The notes beneath the pieces are model-generated. The model ran no database searches. It had not been told where the DNA came from and worked only from the letters and a program-made list of their open reading frames with translations. A program made the translations under genes and the position numbers. DNA of 64,000 nt, taken from the NCBI GenBank assembly GCA_022605425.2, contig CM061249.1:992001-1056000 (forward strand), given 5' to 3'. Shown one piece after another: positions 33,910 through 61,941 of this stretch. The stretch comes from Hamiltosporidium tvaerminnensis (taxonomy: Eukaryota > Microsporidia > Dubosqiidae). Every line of letters starts with the position of its first letter. Within the stretch, counting starts at the first letter, position 1.

Positions 33910-35332
33910 CTAAACACTATGTAGGCCTCTTCCAAGTTCTGTTCTAGGATGATAAAAACGCTCTTTACATCCTGGGCGGAGATGTATCTTATTCTTCACA
34001 AAAACCGCACGCACTGCATCATCTAACTTAGAGAAGTCAGCCGGTTCAAGTCGAAGTACTCCTATGTGGTAGTTGATTAACGATATCGCATGGTGCTCGA
34101 TTGCAGAAAATAAATTTTTTGCGTTTAATCTAGTGTGACAAAGTCTTTCAACTCTTGCTATCAGTTGTCTTTGTACTTCTTTAAATGAGCTACGTGTTGG
34201 GATTCCTCTGCTATCTTCTATTATTCCTAAATATTTGTAAACACTAACACCTTCTAGAAGAGTAGCAGTATCTTCACAACACGTATCATTTGTGGCTGAC
34301 TTCTCTTTGTTAATCTCTAAGCCAATACCCTCTAAAAATTTATTTGCCTCGCCTGTCATAGCACTCAATGTGGAGCTGTCTTTTGCAAGGAGCTTAAGAT
34401 CATCAATAAACAAGAGATGATTAGTAGAGTGGGATTCTGCATCTGTTTGTACTGTCACTTTTGTGTATTTTTCATTAAGCTTTCGGCTTAATGGATCCAT
34501 ACACAACACAAATAACAAAGGTGACAAACTATCTCCTTGCAGAATTCCTCTATCAATCTTCTTGCTCATGATTTTTTCAGGCCCTACTGATATATCAATT
34601 TTCCATTTTGATAATATTACTTTAATAAATTTCAGGATCCAATCAGGTAAATTAAGGTTTTACAATGCATTGAGTTAAATATGCATGATCTATTGAATCA
34701 TTAGCTTTTTCAAAATCAATCCATGTTGCTTAAAGATTGTTTCCATACTCTTTTTTTATGGCAATATTAAGTATAGCCTGCTCTTTCGCTTCCTGCACAC
34801 CTCTAACTGCTCCCGACTGGTTCTCTGCAAGCAACTATCGCCTTTCCACTTCAAGTTGTACGACCTTCGTTACACACTTTGTCGTTAACTTATAGAGGTT
34901 GGACATATAAGTGATTGGCCTGTAGTCAGAGCCTCTTTGTGGAATTCCTTTTGGTATTAAATACGTAAGCCCGCAGTAAAACCAATCAGCTTGTGGTGTT
35001 CCTTCTAAACATATAACCTTCCTAATATCATAATTATGTTTGTGAAGAGTTGTAAGTTTCTTAATGAAAAAATTGTAAATACCATCAATTCCAGCAGCTT
35101 TCCAATTGGGAAGCCAATTAATGATATTTACAAATTCATCAAGTGAAGGAAACGTGGTCGGATGATTATCTGATACAAATCGAATAAAATAATCATCGTA
35201 CGTGACTGTGTTTTCATTTTTATTCCACATTGTAGACCGAAAACTTACAATTTCATCACGACTAACCACGTGCTCTAATTCCACACGCTCAGATAATCCA
35301 CAGTAAAATCGACCTCGGAAAAGCTCAAACAT
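33910..35332 (-). pseudogene. Reverse transcriptase domain of the retrotransposon
   Basis: The RT core is recognised by ENQSGAVRGVQ (before the fingers), ATWIDFEKANDS (motif A, first catalytic Asp), GILQGDSLSPLLFVLCMDP (motif B) and LLFIDDLKLLA (motif C, the Asp pair). It is interrupted by TAG at 34,835-34,837 (where Gln would fit), TAA at 34,730-34,732, a one-base frameshift near 34,660 and TAG at 33,910-33,912. Motif A has Asn where the family usually has Tyr (KAYDS). The role in an intact element would be target-primed reverse transcription of its own RNA. Confidence 0.85.
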
Positions 35333-53831: not shown

Positions 53832-53939
53832 CCCAAACTTATAATTAAAACCCAAACTTATAATTAAAACCCAAACTTATAATCAAAAAACAAACTTATA
53901 ATCAAAAAACAAACTTATAATCAAAGAAACAAACTTAGA
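53832..53939 (+). repeat. 19-bp tandem array
   Basis: Five full units of 19 bp, first form CCCAAACTTATAATTAAAA, plus a partial sixth. The last units drift from CCC to AAC and from ATTA to ATCA. It lies about 540 bp upstream of the Nup54-like gene. Confidence 0.9.
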
Positions 53940-54123
53940 GAGGTCTTGTCACTGTTCCGTTTTTTTTAAAGCTACGCTTAAATTTACAATACCATACCAA
54001 GTTATCATATAAAGATTTATTTCTATATTACCATTATAACTAAGAATTAACTTAATAATTAAAGGTTGTATTCACTAAGTAAATTATAATTTGCATAGAT
54101 TCTTATTTTTATTCCTATTTCTA

Positions 54124-54260
54124 TTCTTGGTTCTATTCTTATTTATTTTTCTATTTCAATTCTTGGTTCTATTCTTATTTATATTTCTATTCCTATTCTT
54201 GGTTCTATTCTTATTTATTTTCCTATTTCTATTCTTGGTTCTACCTAAATTTATTTTCTT
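54124..54260 (+). repeat. 36-bp pyrimidine-rich tandem repeats
   Basis: Three full units begin with TTCTTGGTTCTATTCTTATT at 54,124, 54,160 and 54,196, and a degenerate fourth starts at 54,232. The wider T/C-rich tract covers about 54,098-54,320. The 84-residue open frame over it (Phe/Leu/Val only) is a low-complexity by-product. Confidence 0.9.
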
Positions 54261-54468
54261 ATTTATATTCCTATTTCCATCTATATTTCGATCCTTAATT
54301 CTATCTATATTTATTTTCTTTAGCAGAATGTATTATTTATTGTAAAAATACCTATATCTTTATATTCTAATATCTTTGTACCTCCCTACAAGTATAATAA
54401 GTAAGAACCCTCTTTTGGTTTTCTTTTTTATGCATTTAAAAACCAAAAAATATGAAAAAAATGTTAAA

Positions 54469-54473: not shown

Positions 54474-55100
54474 ATGGAAAAGACAACTATTTATCAAAAA
54501 GAAAAAGAAATATTACAACAAATAGAATCTTTAGAATCTTCATACAACGAAATGTCACCTTTATATAAATTTAAATACATTTTTTATAACATTGTTTCTC
54601 AACCTATTGAGACATGTCCTATAGATTTTCCTGTACATTTATGGGAAAGGGCTATAAAAAATGCACCTGCTTTAAATACCGTACCAGTAGTAGTTAAGGG
54701 GTATAACGGATTAGAAGAAAGAAGAAAGCGACAAATAGATGTAACAACAAAAATTAAAGAATCTTTAGAATCTTTGTGTTTAAGAACAGGTAAGTTAAAA
54801 ATGAGAACAGAAAATATAACGTGTAGACTTAAAAATGCAGGTGACAGTTATAAAAAGCTTTTTAGTAAAATTTATTGTAATATTCGTCAGAATAATACGA
54901 CTGGTTTGACAGGTGAGTTGTTTAGATTGAAGGGGTATATTAATGAGATTGGGATAAGAAATGCAAATTCTATTAATAAAGATTATAAAGAACAGGTAAT
55001 TAACACACTAGGTTCTTTTAAAAATTTGGGGGTTAAAATGTTGCAGGATTTAGAAAATGATTTAAAGGTTTTGGAATCAAAAAAAAATAATTTAATTTAG
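54474..55100 (+). CDS. Nup54/Nup57-family nucleoporin, minimal form
   Basis: The product is 208 residues. IESLESSYNEMSPLYKFKYIFYNIV (residues 17-41) and LWERAIKNAPALNTVPVVV (61-79), followed by KGYNGLEERRKRQ (80-92), match the conserved alpha/beta part of the Nup54 domain (family pattern W..A...NP....VPV...GF..L..R...Q). The rest, to about residue 203, is helical and coiled-coil-like, as expected for the part that joins the Nup62-Nup58-Nup54 central channel complex. There is no N-terminal FG-repeat region at all, although relatives carry one, so this protein could scaffold but not itself form the permeability barrier. The C-run one base before the ATG argues against a longer N-terminus. The 38-bp repeat array starts 13 bp after the stop. 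Confidence 0.8.
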   Translation: MEKTTIYQKEKEILQQIESLESSYNEMSPLYKFKYIFYNIVSQPIETCPIDFPVHLWERAIKNAPALNTVPVVVKGYNGLEERRKRQIDVTTKIKESLESLCLRTGKLKMRTENITCRLKNAGDSYKKLFSKIYCNIRQNNTTGLTGELFRLKGYINEIGIRNANSINKDYKEQVINTLGSFKNLGVKMLQDLENDLKVLESKKNNLI

Positions 55101-55112
55101 ATGTGTAGAAAT

Positions 55113-55460
55113 AAAGGGGGGTGTTAGTATATTATTATGTGATATTTATAAATAGAGGGGTTTTAAGGTATATGTTTGGTAAAGGGGTGTTAATATACTA
55201 TAAATACATTAAAATAAATAAAGGGGTGTTCAATCATGTACTATTTATTATATATTATAGGGGTGTTAATATACTATAAATATATTAAAATATATAAAAG
55301 GGTGTTCAATCATGTACTATTTATTATATATTATAGGGGTGTTAATATACTATAAATATATTAAAATATATAAAGGGGTGTTCAATCATGTACTATTTAT
55401 TATATATTATAGGGGTTTTAATATACTATAATTTAATCTATTCAAAAAAGAGGTGTTAAA
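55113..55460 (+). repeat. 38-bp GGGGTGTT array 1
   Basis: Seven core sites of the form AGGGGTGTT sit exactly 38 bp apart (55,183, 55,221, 55,259, 55,297, 55,335, 55,373, 55,411), and irregular sites occur at 55,113, about 55,154 and about 55,450. Alternate units differ (TGTTAATATACTATAAATA versus TGTTCAATCATGTACTATTT), giving a 76-bp higher-order repeat in three copies from 55,183 to 55,410. The array starts just after the Nup54-like stop codon. The same core, reversed, forms the array at 61,157. Confidence 0.95.
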
Positions 55461-57165
55461 TAAGCATTTTTTAAAAATAATATCATGTGTTATCTTAGCC
55501 CATTTTATTATTAAATGTTGAGTCTGTTTCACAATCACAAAAAAATAATTTATTTCAAATTTTAAAAACCATACATTAATTTCCAGTACTTTTTGTAATT
55601 ATAAATACAAAAATCTACTTAAATTCTTTTCCTAAGCCTTTTTCTTACATTTGTATCGTTTTCTTTTGATATTCTAAGAAATACAAATAAGCGAATCATA
55701 CAGGAAAGAAAAAAAATACAGTTTATTTGTACATAAGTAACATTATAAATGAGCTTTTGATCATTAAAATTATATAATGAAGCGATATTAGGTAAAAAAA
55801 TACTCCTTAAGGCATGTACATTTATATTCTTAAACTTATTTCATTCTTTACTAAAATAACTATTTCAGATCTTAAGAAAATTAAGGAACATTTTAATAAA
55901 CGTATATTCTTCTGTTTTGTTTGACCTTTTGTTTGCTAAAAATACATCTTTGGTAACTGAATACCTGGGATTTATTTTAGACGAATGATGATTATAATTG
56001 CATTCTTTTTCATAAAAGTCATAAATCTATCTCGAATTTCTACCGAGACGATATATAAAAAAACTTTAATTTATCCGCGTCTATTATATCAGATAGTCAA
56101 TATATTTTGCCAAAGGTTGTTTAAGATTTAAACACACATTTTTCCGATATTTTTTTTAATCAAATAACTTAAATAGAATTCTTTATTAAATTAATTTATT
56201 CTGTATTGTAGGTATTTTTACTATTATTGCTTTAAATGTTTTAACTTATGGGAGCTGTTTTTTCGACACTCTATGTTTATTTGTAGCGATGCAATATCTG
56301 TTTATTTAAATGAAATCAAATTGTATTCTCGAAAACAAAAACTTTTAGTAATATAACGAATAAAATTCTTATTGCGTTTTAAAATCTATGTTTTCTTTAT
56401 ATAAGCTTTATTCTTTCGATAATAGAAAAATAAAATTAATTGTCTTATTTCATTTATATTTTCGGTTTCAAAACCATCTAATGGTTGTCTATCTACAAAG
56501 CAATAAAAACCAATTCAAATATAATTATTTGTTACATTTTCTGCTTATTTGTGTGTAATATTGAGACTGAAAGGAAACGTTTTACACCAATAAATTGCAA
56601 AGATAATTCAAACATGCGATTATTTGTTTACTTCTTGTGCATATGAAGAAGGTATTCTCTAATATTTTTCAAGAAAGCTCCGCAGTTAATATAGTATGCA
56701 TCGGTGCACTATGAATTACTCGTAAAACTTTCGGTTCTGAATATTTTCTTGTCTAAACTTGTACAAATTTCTGATAATTTTCTAATATAACGAATGGTTT
56801 AAATGTTAAAAAAACTTTTTAACTTTAAGACGCGTAGGTGATTAGTTTATATCAACTGAAATTAAGATTATTAGTTGATTTAATCAATATCTGGGTAATA
56901 TTTAACTGTTTCTGGAATCATCAGAACGGTTTTATTTCAAAATAAACATATCTTTGCTTGCATTTTGTTATAATCAAATATTTCTAAGTTTTAAATGCTT
57001 GCAGATTTTTTTTTTGATTTTTTGTAATTCTCTTCATTCTTAGAAAAGTTTATATTCGCAAAGTCTACAAAATTTCTTCTGAAATATGTATATAACTAAA
57101 AAAAACTCAGATTAAATGGCAAAAACAGTGATAAAATAATATAAGTCACTATAAAAAGTATTTGT
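55461..57165. other. Intergenic, nothing recognised
   Basis: AT-rich sequence between array 1 and the 3' end of the decayed retrotransposon. No gene or further 38-bp core was seen. Confidence 0.55.
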
Positions 57166-57169
57166 TTGA

Positions 57170-60100
57170 TAAATTTTTTGTTGCAATATTTTTTGCCTAT
57201 TTTTTATATTTTTTGCCTATTTTTTATATTTTTTCGTTGTTCTTTTTACGTTTTTACTTTTCCTTCCAAATACGAATCTTCATCTAAATTTTTTGTCAGT
57301 TTCTATAATATGGTTACTTTTGCTTATATATTAGTAGTTTGTTTTTTGTATTTACTTGTTTAGAATCATCTTTCTTGTTCTTCGCTTTTGCAAGAAATTT
57401 ATGGTTTTTTATATTTCTCAGTTCGTCCAATAACACACAATGAAGCTCTCTCCTTACTATTTAGGCAGTTGATCTTGATTTGAGTCTTCTATGTGAATAA
57501 AAAAAATTGATTTGACTGATTTTGAGGCATTCGAGTAGAATAAATGTCTACGCCACAGACAATTTCTAATCTTTTATGATATTTTTTGTAAAACATTGTC
57601 ACTATAACTTTCTGTGTCAGATATGCGATCATTCTAACACTGTATTAATATATAAGATACCTCTACTTAGCCATGGTTTATATTTCAGTGTTTTTGGTTT
57701 TTATACTCTGTTATAAATATTGGAAATGATTCACAATTCAATGAAATGATCTTTTCTGACTTCTGTCTAAAATAAATATATCGCATGTGGTTTCTCGAAT
57801 ATTGAGAAAGGGTTTTCGATGTATTCTCATGATTCGGAAACACATGATTAAGAATTTAATAAAGCTATTGATTTCGTATATCGTTTTTTTGGCTAAAATT
57901 AAATAGATTTGAAAGATTTGGTTTGCAATAATGATTTTTTAACGTCTAACCTGGTCCTGCCGCGAATTATGTATTATTAGGCTGTTTAATGGTTTACGTT
58001 AATGGTTGCAGTATTTTATCTTTGCTTCTGTTTCTCATTATATAATTCTACTTTGGATATAGCAGATAACGGCTTCATTGCATTTACTGCTATTCTCTTT
58101 CTTTAACTTTTTTAGAGAATATTAACCCACAAAGCCCATTTTTTTGCATCACATAATTTTGAAAAAGGTTTTTTTATATTGTTTTGCGTGTATTAGTTGC
58201 AGTTTTAACAAATTAAAAGTTCTTTTTGGTAAATCTTTTTGGTTTACTTTTTATTTTTAGGATAATTTAGACGGGACAAGACAAGTTTTTTATAATTAAT
58301 GCTTTATAAAGTTATTAAAAACAATCATGACCCATAGTTTCGTTTCAAAACGATCTTTTGGTTACAGAAGATTGACAACAATTTACAAACTCAAATTTAA
58401 AGGCTTGCTCTAAGCTCTCTTTAATAAAAGAACAAGGTTCTTAAGATTCTGCTCTAAAACGTATCGTATATTTCTACAATATTACATGCAGTGCATCATT
58501 TAATTAAAAGAAACCGGATTCAGTGTGTGTATGTCAGTTTAATAGGCAACCAACGATATTAAATGTAAATATTTGCATTAAAAATGTTTCTTGCATTTAT
58601 TTTTGTGCGTTAAATTGCCATTTCTTACTATTAGTTTGTTTGCACTTATGTATATTAGCAGCTTGTATTAGCACTTCTGTTTATCTTCTATCACTTACAG
58701 ATGTTTTTAGCACTAACGATTTCTTGAATGTAGCAGAATTATAGAAAATTTTATGATTTGTGATTGTGTTCTTCAATTATCTCAAAATCAATAATCTTTA
58801 TAGAATTCTTATACACATGTACCATAGATCTCAATGTTATGTTTTTCATTGCAATTATCTTTATATCATTAAAGAACATGAAATATTGCCAGTCGATAAA
58901 CAGCATTTGCATTTAAATTGTATTAGTATATTTCGGGTTAGTTTCAGCTCCATAGAATAATTACTATGAAAAAAGAAAAAGAGGCATGGTATTATATTTA
59001 AATATATCTCCATTAGAATATTTGTTAAAAAAATTGTAAAGCCATATTAAAAAACACATTATTTTTAAAATAATGCATCAAACATATTTACGATTTATTG
59101 GTATTATTTAGATTTTAAAAGCATGGAATTAATTAGGCGAGGTTTTTCGACCATAATGATCAAATCTCATACAAGTTTCTTTAAGATTGTTTCCATATTC
59201 TTTGTAAAGAGTAAAGCTATCGTTAAAGTCTTTTATACGGGTTTTGTACATCACTAAAATTTATAATGGAAAATCCGAAAGTAAATTTTTTTCTTACAAG
59301 AAGCTGATCGGTCTCTGTAGTTAGAATTTTCAACTTTAAAATGACATTTTTTGGCCTTGATTCGGAATTTTTCTGACAGTATTCATGTTTTCTTTTAGAG
59401 CAGCCAGCGATAAAAGAATTTTACCGAAGATGTTTTTTTTATATGCATTTCCATGCCAAAATGATAATTAAACGAGCTGTACTTTTCCGAAATAGAAATT
59501 CTGAATGGCTTTAGTTTCTGCGATTTCTAGTCTAAAAGCCAATCTATAATCCTATATATTAAATATGTTTGAAGTATCTGTATTCTAACTGCTACAAATT
59601 GAATTTATATCTGATAATTAATGACTTTTTCTTCATTTTTATTACATACTGTAGACTAAAAACTTAAACTTTATGATGACAAACCCTATTCCCAGATTAA
59701 GCAAACAAAATTGCTTCCTGAACAGCCTAAAAACAAGATTATCTTTTTGATTAACTTATAGTTTCGAAGAAAATCCTTGTGCTCTTTCGACATTTAAAAA
59801 TCAGTCTTCTTAAGTATCCCAATAGAAAATTTATGTTGCCCGCTTAGTTTTAATTCAATAATTACACGATCTTCATGCGGCTTTATGCCTTTGAAGCAGA
59901 GAAGTTTTCTTTCTTCAAGCCGTCTCGATAAAATCTTTAGTGCGGTTTTACTTTTATTTTAGGGCTTATGATATATCTCGTGGCGAATCTGTGTTGCCTT
60001 TGTGTGTTTCCTCGTGATTACATACCATCTCGCGTGAATAATGCCTATCGCGTCATTCATCTTTATTGAGACAGGTGCTCTAGAAAATTCATTACATATT

Positions 60101-60650
60101 CGAACAATAGAATCTAAAATTTTACTATCAACCAATTCACTTGGAAGCTTTCAATTCAGACCACTACAGTTTCTATTTCCTTCTTCAAGAGTACATTTAT
60201 TATACATAAGTGTTTCTATTTCTGGTATAAGGAAGATGCTTTTATATAGAGTAAAGGATCATAAAAAAATGGGCATTATATGTTCACTTATGTTTTTTCC
60301 TGTTCTATTAGAATCTCGCTTTATCTTGAAATATTTTTTCAACTCGTTGATAGTAACGGCAGACTCAAAATTCTCATAAGGGTATCTCAGTATTAAAGTT
60401 ACCTTAAAAAAGTAATTCTTTCTGACCTCTTCTATACACAGCAAGAATATATACAGGCTATTCTTTTTTACGGCTGTGACTGTTTTTTAATATTTACATA
60501 AACTTTAAAGCGTTTTCTTTTAGAATAGCAGCAGTTTTAGGATTTATCATGCTTTTGGTCAGTCTATCACATAGACACCTGGAACTTAGGAGTGAGTAGG
60601 GTGTAGAATAATTCGACCAGACGCGTTTAATATCTCATTTATATGTGAGT
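57170..60650 (-). mobile_element. Decayed RLE non-LTR retrotransposon, copy 3
   Basis: Collinear matches to the 33-kb copy include the 3' end and acidic tail (57,170-57,310), the segment near AATGAAGCTCTCTCC (57,440), GGATATAGCAGATAACGGCTT in the CCHC region (58,055) and TTTACTATCAACCAATTCACTT in the N-terminal region (60,118), and then a block near 60,600. The middle is shorter than the other copy, so deletions have occurred. No long coding frame remains. It fills most of the interval between the Nup54-like and Rpb10 genes. Confidence 0.8.
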
Positions 60651-60914
60651 TTGTAAAGCATCCAGTAATCAATGCATGTAAGGCTCTCTAAAAATGTGCT
60701 CATACATGCGAAACACATACTTTTCACATTTTGTTAATTTGCCAAAGGGTTTAAAAGTCTTTATTTTCTTGTATATTTTCCGCTTTTAATATATTCATTC
60801 TATCCACATTGGTTACTAAAAATCTTCTAAAAATATTATGATTAAAAGGGTGTTATTTATTGCATTCTGACGAAAATCAAAGAGTAAAATTTTTTTATTT
60901 TAAAGAATCTTCAA

Positions 60915-60919
60915 CCCCC
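60915..60919 (+). promoter_or_regulatory. C-run start motif before Rpb10
   Basis: CCCCC ends one base before the ATG at 60,921, the same spacing as at the Nup54-like gene. Confidence 0.65.
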
Positions 60920-60920
60920 A

Positions 60921-61130
60921 ATGATTATTCCGGTACGTTGCTTCACATGTGGGAAAGAAATATCAAGCAAATGGGAACCATATGTAGATTTGTTAGGCCA
61001 AGGAAGGACTGAATGTGAGGCATTAGATATTTTAGGACTTGGAAGAAAATGCTGTAGAAGAATGCTTTTATGCCACGAGGATATTATAGAAAAGGTTTTG
61101 AATTATGATGTTTTTCAAAATCTTTCGTAA
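60921..61130 (+). CDS. RPB10: RNA polymerase subunit Rpb10 (ABC10-beta)
   Basis: The product is 69 residues, the normal size for the family. The start [12 protein letters not shown] carries the first zinc pair (Cys7, Cys10) and [12 protein letters not shown] carries the second (Cys44, Cys45). The segment between them, [20 protein letters not shown], follows the family closely. Rpb10 is a shared core subunit of nuclear RNA polymerases I, II and III and helps anchor the Rpb3/Rpb11 platform. The family signature is complete, so the protein is likely functional. A decayed retrotransposon lies upstream and the reversed 38-bp array begins 27 bp after the stop. Confidence 0.97.
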
Positions 61131-61156
61131 ATTAAAATTTTAAATTCTGCATTATA

Positions 61157-61360
61157 TTAACACCCCTTTAATATATAGTAAAATAAATTCTATTTAACAC
61201 CCCTTTAATATATAGTAAAATGGTACAACGTTTAACACCCCTTTAATGAATGATAAAAACATATGTTATTTAACACCCCTTTAGTATATACTAAAATGGT
61301 AGAATATTTAACACCCCTTTAGTAGTATATATAAATACCTTTATTTAACATCCCTTTATT
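61157..61360 (-). repeat. 38-bp GGGGTGTT array 2, reversed
   Basis: Six sites of TTAACACCCCTTTA (one with CATCCC) begin near 61,157, 61,194, 61,232, 61,270, 61,307 and 61,346, that is every 37-39 bp. On the minus strand the core reads TAAAGGGGTGTTAA, the same as in array 1, with the same period. Spacers between cores differ more than in array 1. The array fills most of the 313-bp gap between Rpb10 and the myosin light chain gene. Confidence 0.95.
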
Positions 61361-61433
61361 ACTATAATATCTCTTCCTTAATTATAACCTTTATTTTTCT
61401 TTAAAAAATTTAAAATTTTAAAATCCTTTAAAA

Positions 61434-61443: not shown

Positions 61444-61941
61444 ATGAAAAGACGAAGCAAAAGACAAAACTCTAATGTATTTGCAATGCTCAGTAAAAAT
61501 CAAATATTTGAATTAAAAGAAGCATTTGGTCTATTAGACACCAACAACGATGGTATCATATCAAAAGAAGATTTAAAAACATTTCTTAGTTCGATAGGAG
61601 ATCCATTTACCGAATCGGAAATAGATGAAATGATGGAAGAAGCAGGAAATGAAATGTCATTTATGATGTTTCTTACCTTAGTTGGAGAAAAACTGAGCTG
61701 TACGGATGAAGAAAGTGTTATTCTTCACGCATTTAAAGATTTTGATGAGAATAGAAACGGATTTGTTGAAGAAAAAGTTTTAAAAAAATGGTTGACACAA
61801 GAAGGAGACAAAATGTGTGAAGAAGACGTGGATTTTTTATTAAAGGATTGTTGTGAAAATGGAATGGTTGATTATAAAAAATTAACTGAAATTATAAAAC
61901 ACGGAGAAGTTTTAAAGAAAGAAGAAATTGTTTATCAATAG
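61444..61941 (+). CDS. Myosin regulatory light chain
   Basis: The product is 165 residues, normal for the family. The basic N-terminus followed by RQNSNVFAML (residues 7-16) matches the phosphorylatable start of myosin regulatory light chains; Ser10 lies at the main kinase site, and the preceding Thr of animal proteins is Asn here. EF-hand 1 (DTNNDGIISKED, residues 33-44) keeps all calcium or magnesium ligands. The later hands are degenerate, as usual, except that DENRNGFVEE (about 100-109) keeps part of a loop. MMFLTLVGEKLSCTDEESVI and the ending IIKHGE are family marks that separate it from calmodulin and centrin. The role would be to bind and stiffen the IQ neck of a myosin II-like heavy chain, for example in cytokinesis. 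Confidence 0.92.
   Translation: MKRRSKRQNSNVFAMLSKNQIFELKEAFGLLDTNNDGIISKEDLKTFLSSIGDPFTESEIDEMMEEAGNEMSFMMFLTLVGEKLSCTDEESVILHAFKDFDENRNGFVEEKVLKKWLTQEGDKMCEEDVDFLLKDCCENGMVDYKKLTEIIKHGEVLKKEEIVYQ

Follow-up and report, generated by a model that had tools for sequence, protein, structure and literature searches.

The arrangement of two G-rich repeat arrays in the genome of Hamiltosporidium tvaerminnensis, a microsporidian parasite of Daphnia (water flea), raises the question of what such arrays are and how they came to lie where they do. The arrays were identified in a window of 64,000 nucleotides (the whole stretch of DNA that was analysed), along with the following features:

54474..55100, plus strand: Nup54-like gene (PF13874), with TTAAACCCCA-ATG at its start
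55113..55460, plus strand: array 1, ten core-like units, beginning 13 bp past the end of the Nup54-like gene
55600..60700, no strand: inter-array DNA, present once in the genome apart from a stretch of about 100 bp (60113-60210)
60844..60857, plus strand: a solitary core, AAAAGGGTGTTATT, some 65 bp 5' of the Rpb10 start
60921..61130, plus strand: Rpb10 gene (PF01194, RNA_pol_N/Rpb10), with AACCCCCA-ATG at its start
61157..61366, minus strand: array 2, six cores, five of them exact AAAGGGGTGTTAA, 37-38 bp apart
61444..61941, plus strand: EF-hand protein gene, 3' of array 2, with TTTAAAACCCCATATAA-ATG at its start

Both arrays are real, far beyond chance: the window contains 12 matches to AAAGGGGTGTTAA when up to one mismatch is allowed, compared with a mean of 0.15 over 100 shuffles (largest 1). 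The initial annotation placed them in opposite orientations and at a fixed phase, 13 and 27 bp behind the Nup54-like and Rpb10 genes, and this is borne out by the strands, by the core spacing and by the Pfam matches of the two genes. The regular part of array 1 (55183-55431) is a 76-bp double unit present in 3.3 copies with 97% matches, within which the cores are 37 and 39 bp apart; its G strand is directed away from the Nup54-like gene. Array 2 lies 77-88 bp upstream of the EF-hand gene, and its G strand points from that gene to Rpb10, which is the nearest one, an exception to the outward-facing tendency of the intergenic arrays described below. The core is common to both arrays, although the whole 38-bp unit, previously taken to be the same repeat, is not. 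In a core-based alignment of array 2, all six units agree in 13 of 14 core columns, as against 4 of 24 spacer columns, consistent with the earlier impression that its cores are more alike than its spacers. Better conserved cores in array 2 suit a function, and count against a reading of pure turnover. The arrays do not mark the two ends of a single transposon, since the 5.1 kb between them is single copy except for the 100 bp or so mentioned above and does not recur as a unit. No known RNA families (at gathering thresholds) and no tRNAs were identified in the window.

The core is not peculiar to this window. The exact core 13-mer has 258 copies in the genome (0 for the backward control) and AGGGTGTTA has 3785 (110 for the control). 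The search of the whole assembly for spaced cores that had been suggested yielded 206 tandem pairs at 35-41 bp, compared with 0 for the control. Matches to the arrays occur on all 17 contigs and not as one array per chromosome, and arrays are found both between and within genes. The family core can be written as (TAAA)(G)GGGTGTTA, with a shared word of 8-13 bases, and the head-to-tail units are mostly 27-40 bp long, within the minisatellite range of about 10-100 bp. None of the literature matches listed describes this core for Hamiltosporidium.

Detailed counts of cores and open reading frames (ORFs) come from 296.6 kb of genomic loci picked for holding the core, the densities of which are not genome averages. 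The loci L041, L045 and L048 were excluded due to overlap with other loci, both of the paralogues L021 and L022 are included in the core, frame and spacing counts, and the gene models are our own calls based on open frames and codon usage (training set of 36 ORFs). Core spacing peaks at 38-40 and 30 bp outside called genes and at 30, 39 and 27 bp inside them. Unlinked arrays have the core in common, and the intergenic spacers are largely locus-specific. The best cross-locus spacer identity has a median of 0.78 for sense arrays in genes and 0.63 for arrays outside genes (0.52 when shuffled, in both cases); given the more locus-specific spacers, the case for seeding by copying is weaker outside genes. 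Human hypervariable minisatellites likewise form tandem arrays at unlinked loci, with a common short G-rich core, a locus-specific remainder and length change by whole units. Unlike these, the Hamiltosporidium arrays are also found in frame, with five frames in use, in many conserved genes, and their blocks tend to be convergent.

Of the 1000 core 8-mers in the 296.6 kb, 523 lie within called ORFs, where all five stop-free frames are used (311, 52 and 25 sense; 126 and 9 antisense). Core spacing is a multiple of three in 320/348 cases in ORFs vs. 159/371 outside. The in-frame inserts fall inside conserved Pfam domains (HDAC, SNF2, kinase and myosin). The first insert of the HDAC is missing in all six aligned homologues from other microsporidia, and the second in five of the six; the remaining one carries an insert of unrelated sequence at that site. 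All 41 matches in a translated array search are Hamiltosporidium proteins, and the peptide of the L046 array region gave no hit at E 0.001 among 1239 candidates. GV is coded by GGT GTT in 350 of 444 instances and NTP by AAC ACC CCY in 75 of 99. Control peptides from the spacers have a similar codon bias; thus, the bias shows DNA copying rather than selection on the core. The sense-strand bias in genes (388 vs. 135 counted per core) is gone when counted per array (52 vs. 45). Protein-level selection for repeat peptides as the sole cause is ruled out by the use of five frames and both strands and by the extragenic copies.

Under its former name, Octosporea bayeri, this species was reported to have in-frame inserts of 15-57 aa in 14 conserved proteins, retained in the mRNA as judged by RT-PCR (PMC2784321). 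Those inserts are, like the genic arrays, large in-frame insertions in the same species, and are candidates for being the same feature; the section of that paper on the inserts mentions neither a shared DNA core nor the frames nor a link to intergenic arrays (PMC2784321).

The arrays differ between related genes by whole units. The only indels longer than 4 bp between the paralogues L021 and L022 are of 60 and 57 bp, each corresponding to two whole core-to-core units. The array of the CPSF1 orthologue of H. magnivora shows indels of 17 and 10 aa, and a UBA1-like pair from the two species (73% identical, one partial, perhaps non-orthologous) has an array difference of 30 aa. Within H. tvaerminnensis, no change in array length was identified between two records of the HDAC, or in the CPSF over the part common to P0130 and P0133. 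Substitution rates in the paralogue pair are equal in core (8/369) and spacer (42/1642; p 0.85, low power), and no core constraint is seen in this pair.

We consider it somewhat probable (about 55%) that the arrays constitute a Hamiltosporidium-specific minisatellite family, whose members are seeded by a common DNA core and gain and lose units in step with it. The core would serve as the registration point for duplication, contraction and copying, possibly via core-to-core template switching or unequal exchange. Units copied to other sites would found new arrays, and selection would then retain mainly frame-keeping, hydrophilic versions inside genes. A bound protein, or a site of fork stalling or breakage, may be the reason that the core acts in this way.

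A terminator or boundary role, one of those entertained in the initial annotation, is kept as a live reading because intergenic arrays tend to face away from the nearest gene (16/18). The intergenic arrays could be functional stop or boundary arrays that end transcripts leaving genes, with the genic copies as a by-product, a possibility that we regard as rather unlikely. Transcripts reading through at the 3' end, or divergent antisense transcripts at the 5' end, would meet repeated UAAA-GGGGUGUU, which might act as a poly(A)-signal-like tetramer plus GU-rich element, or as a polar road-block site. UAAA has been reported as a 3'-end motif for H. tvaerminnensis (PMC10542269). The orientation count (p 0.0013) refers to the G strand and to the nearest called gene; it omits L022, arrays 30-85% inside genes, arrays more than 300 bp from any called gene and arrays with at least 60% of gaps divisible by three, the last of these filters removing window array 1. 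Two of the 18 arrays share the locus L038, and another (L030) is situated among strand-alternating cores. The outward proportion is 23/28 without the spacing filter, 16/19 if two cores are allowed and 20/25 if the gene may be within 1000 bp, and five of six further arrays judged by eye (one of the six with a single strict core) also face outward. UAAA is directly 5' of the G run in 203/436 non-coding cores vs. 77/372 coding-sense cores (71/154 vs. 29/135 with one core per 150 bp), and A[AU]UAAA occurs within 3 nt in 115/436 non-coding cores compared with 16.6 when shuffled. However, coding-antisense cores are intermediate (83/220; antisense vs. sense per 150 bp, p 0.1), so UAAA may be just part of the DNA core. 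Coding arrays are 52 G-sense and 45 G-antisense, so genes tolerate sense copies; window array 2 points at Rpb10, its nearest gene; and this explanation was formed after most of the data had been seen.

The spread of the unit as a small inverted-repeat element (RPE- or MITE-like), with cores as its ends and tandem growth later, is unlikely. It would account for the tendency of blocks to be convergent, which is seen in cluster transitions in genes (36 convergent vs. 15 divergent, p 0.005) and outside them (14 vs. 5, p 0.06), in close opposite pairs genome-wide (57 convergent vs. 19 divergent) and in mixed clusters, which have the G strand first and the C strand last in 24 cases vs. 3 reverse in genes and 12 vs. 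3 outside. It would also fit the placement of in-frame inserts in conserved genes. Against this, one-orientation clusters are common (21/58 in genes, 40/56 outside), 10 of the 37 mixed genic clusters have the same orientation at both ends, there is no constant element length, and strict opposite 8-mer neighbours within 130 bp are 17 convergent vs. 14 divergent in genes and 7 vs. 4 outside. At the 50 of 57 close convergent pairs tested, the junctions have no extra complementarity beside the core, and no hairpin or palindrome beyond the core was seen. Rickettsia palindromic elements (RPEs) are described as repeats of about 150 bp that encode a conserved peptide and are inserted in frame in unrelated genes (PMC10969869). 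The Hamiltosporidium arrays are like these in being DNA repeats placed in frame in unrelated, conserved genes. They are unlike them in being tandem arrays of variable length, in five frames, that form neither a single defined element with a conserved peptide nor a palindromic stem.

That the arrays are an amplified form of the microsporidian CCC-like start signal is very improbable. CCC-like and GGG-like start signals are known in Microsporidia (PMC2803860), and 30/67 of our gene calls have a CCC no more than 20 bp from the first ATG, compared with 9/67 for the next 25 bp upstream. The start signal resembles TTAACCCC, which is close to the C strand of the core (TTAACACCCC), and the last core of L030 directly adjoins the ATG. 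However, arrays are also found 3' of genes, as are 8 of the 16 that face outward, and within genes in both orientations. The UAAA 3'-end signals resemble the edge of the core. The available descriptions of the CCC, GGG and UAAA signals place them at gene ends and contain no intragenic arrays (PMC2803860, PMC10542269).

The least probable explanation is that the arrays are iterons of an origin, a centromere or a telomere-like sequence, as the G-rich strand, the phased cores and, in our own comparison, the resemblance of the core to the telomere unit GGGTTA plus an extra G might suggest, since hundreds of core pairs occur on 17/17 contigs, rather than at one or few loci per chromosome, and many are in frame inside protein genes. 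Derivation from telomeres was rejected: the two telomeres examined (1.5 kb in all) consist of TTAGGG repeats without the core.

The reading of the arrays as core-registered minisatellites has a broader form, which we put forward tentatively and think may well not hold: that a short DNA word colonised a eukaryotic genome as self-seeding minisatellites, in any open frame, the arrays between genes facing out and maybe co-opted as polar stops or boundaries. If true, some in-frame protein insertions and the repeated DNA of this parasite would have a common cause at the DNA level. The arrays would then provide a natural system for following the entry of a repeat into conserved genes that stay intact, a process made measurable by the use of five frames, by the two paralogues and by the sister species. 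Should the intergenic arrays act as transcription stops, they would constitute signals specific to this lineage, on top of the ordinary ones.

The two arrays lie where the initial annotation had placed them, and the core was matched 12 times in the window with at most one mismatch, far above the chance expectation of 0.15.

55113-55460, forward strand: array 1, downstream of the Nup54-like gene; includes a 76-bp double unit
61157-61366, reverse strand: array 2, six cores 37-38 bp apart; flanked by Rpb10 and an EF-hand gene

The annotation had treated both as the same repeat, which holds for the common core and fails for the spacers, as these differ between the arrays. The greater uniformity it saw in the cores of array 2 was reproduced (with units delimited by us at the cores, all six agree in 13 of the 14 columns of the core and in 4 of the 24 in the spacer). 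Other tandem arrays, which lack the core, lie upstream of the Nup54-like gene at 53834-53937 (19 bp) and 54099-54320 (12/36 bp). Farther to the left, the window holds a reverse transcriptase fragment (PF00078) at 33913-34569. A dispersed repeat of ~100 bp at 60113-60210 has 39 further places among 40 matches scored (71-85% identity); copies on contig C4 at 483380, 497455, 511530 and 525651 follow in steps of 14,075, 14,075 and 14,121 bp, which suggests a large tandem unit.

In the assembly (21,638,905 bp, 17 contigs), exact AAAGGGGTGTTAA occurs 258 times (0 for the backward control) and AGGGTGTTA 3785 times (control 110). The search for regularly spaced cores proposed in the initial annotation recovered 206 AGGGGTGTT pairs at 35-41 bp genome-wide (control 0), and three sub-patterns with wider spacing gave 101, 89 and 118 (control 0 for each). 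Array 1 DNA has 55 matches in the genome at 67-100% identity and, among the matches listed, all 17 contigs carry core places or array 1 matches. The core 8-mer also occurs within a repeated GGGTGTTATTATGAGAGCAGAG-like stretch (window 62418 and 32911; position 87 of locus L055); rather than forming an array, this stretch seems to belong to a dispersed element.

Many arrays lie inside protein genes. Across 296.6 kb (the window plus 36 loci chosen for holding the core), 523 of 1000 copies of GGGTGTTA fall within ORFs that we called ourselves. All five stop-free frames are used (sense 311, 52 and 25; antisense 126 and 9), and the sixth, which reads TAA, has no copies in these ORFs. Core spacing is a multiple of three in 320/348 cases within ORFs (commonest 30, then 39, then 27 bp) and in 159/371 outside them (peaks at 38-40 and 30). 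Arrays sit within Pfam domains in an HDAC, a protein kinase, a myosin and an INO80-type SNF2 protein. Of the HDAC inserts, the first (about residues 78-164) is missing in 6/6 other microsporidian homologues aligned and the second (about 285-341) in 5/6; the T. hominis homologue has an unrelated insert at the second site. Searched against 5.77 billion proteins, with candidates limited to 0.55-1.75 times HDAC length, the first insert had 1684 candidates, of which 41 reached E 0.01 or better; every one of these hits is to Hamiltosporidium (tvaerminnensis or magnivora), in proteins unrelated to one another. A protein search with a second array region, from locus L046, gave no hits. The 2009 genome paper on this species, under its earlier name Octosporea bayeri, describes in-frame inserts of 15-57 aa in 14 proteins that remain in mRNA (PMC2784321) and that may be arrays of this kind. 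The queuine tRNA-ribosyltransferase-like gene at window 62692-63381 matches only the later part of PF01702, and P0146, another QTRT-named protein of this species, has an array peptide.

Spacers of sense arrays in genes resemble those at other loci (median best identity 0.78 vs 0.52 shuffled), and those outside genes show weaker cross-locus likeness (0.63 vs 0.52). Codon choice shows relatedness at the DNA level: GV is encoded by GGT GTT in 350/444 cases and NTP by AAC ACC CCY in 75/99. Spacer control peptides, however, are biased too (NST as AAC AGT ACT in 40/63).

Large changes between copies take the form of whole units in one paralogue pair, L021 and L022 (contig C1 at 1166 and 1262 kb), an inverted duplicate of a gene of ~1800 aa that is 98.5% identical (6325/6421 aligned sites agree). 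The only indels longer than 4 bp, of 60 and 57 bp, are both exactly two core-to-core units and keep the frame. Array surroundings change faster, with differences at 42/1642 spacer sites vs 46/4410 elsewhere (p 3e-5); cores (8/369) differ at a rate as for spacers (p 0.85, with low power). CPSF1 and its H. magnivora orthologue are near-identical beside the array, with indels of 17 and 10 aa inside it, and two UBA1-like proteins that may not be orthologues show a 30-aa difference within the array. Within the species, no length change was found in HDAC or in the shared part of CPSF.

Opposite cores tend to converge. Mixed clusters begin on the G strand and end on the C strand in 24 of 37 cases in genes (opposite 3, same at both ends 10) and in 12 of 16 outside them (3 and 1), and close opposite pairs genome-wide are convergent in 57 cases vs divergent in 19 (p 1.5e-5). 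Strict neighbouring opposite 8-mers are near even (17 vs 14 in genes, 7 vs 4 outside), so the evidence for convergence comes from whole blocks and from the count across the genome. In arrays outside genes, the G strand is directed away from whichever called gene lies nearest in 16/18 cases (p 0.0013), in 23/28 once the spacing filter is removed, and in 5/6 additional arrays judged by eye; seven of ten array-flanking genes checked had a Pfam hit. Array 1 points outward and is not among the 18 because the spacing filter removes it; array 2, one of the two misses, faces away from the EF-hand gene and toward Rpb10, its nearest gene. This orientation, together with UAAA preceding 203/436 non-coding vs 77/372 coding-sense cores, is the basis of a second reading, in which the arrays may act as outward-facing transcription stops.

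Minisatellites with a shared core are a known kind of repeat. In-frame selfish inserts are known as well (PMC10969869). In the literature covered, outside which most subscription papers lie, we found no earlier description of the two united, in five frames and across spacers. The data show how the core is distributed, which frames it occupies, that the paralogue pair changes by whole units, and that cores tend to converge; the seeding of new arrays and the cause of registration at the core are inferences. We read the arrays as minisatellites registered at the core, from which new arrays would be seeded and on which, inside genes, frame and peptide would act as a filter.
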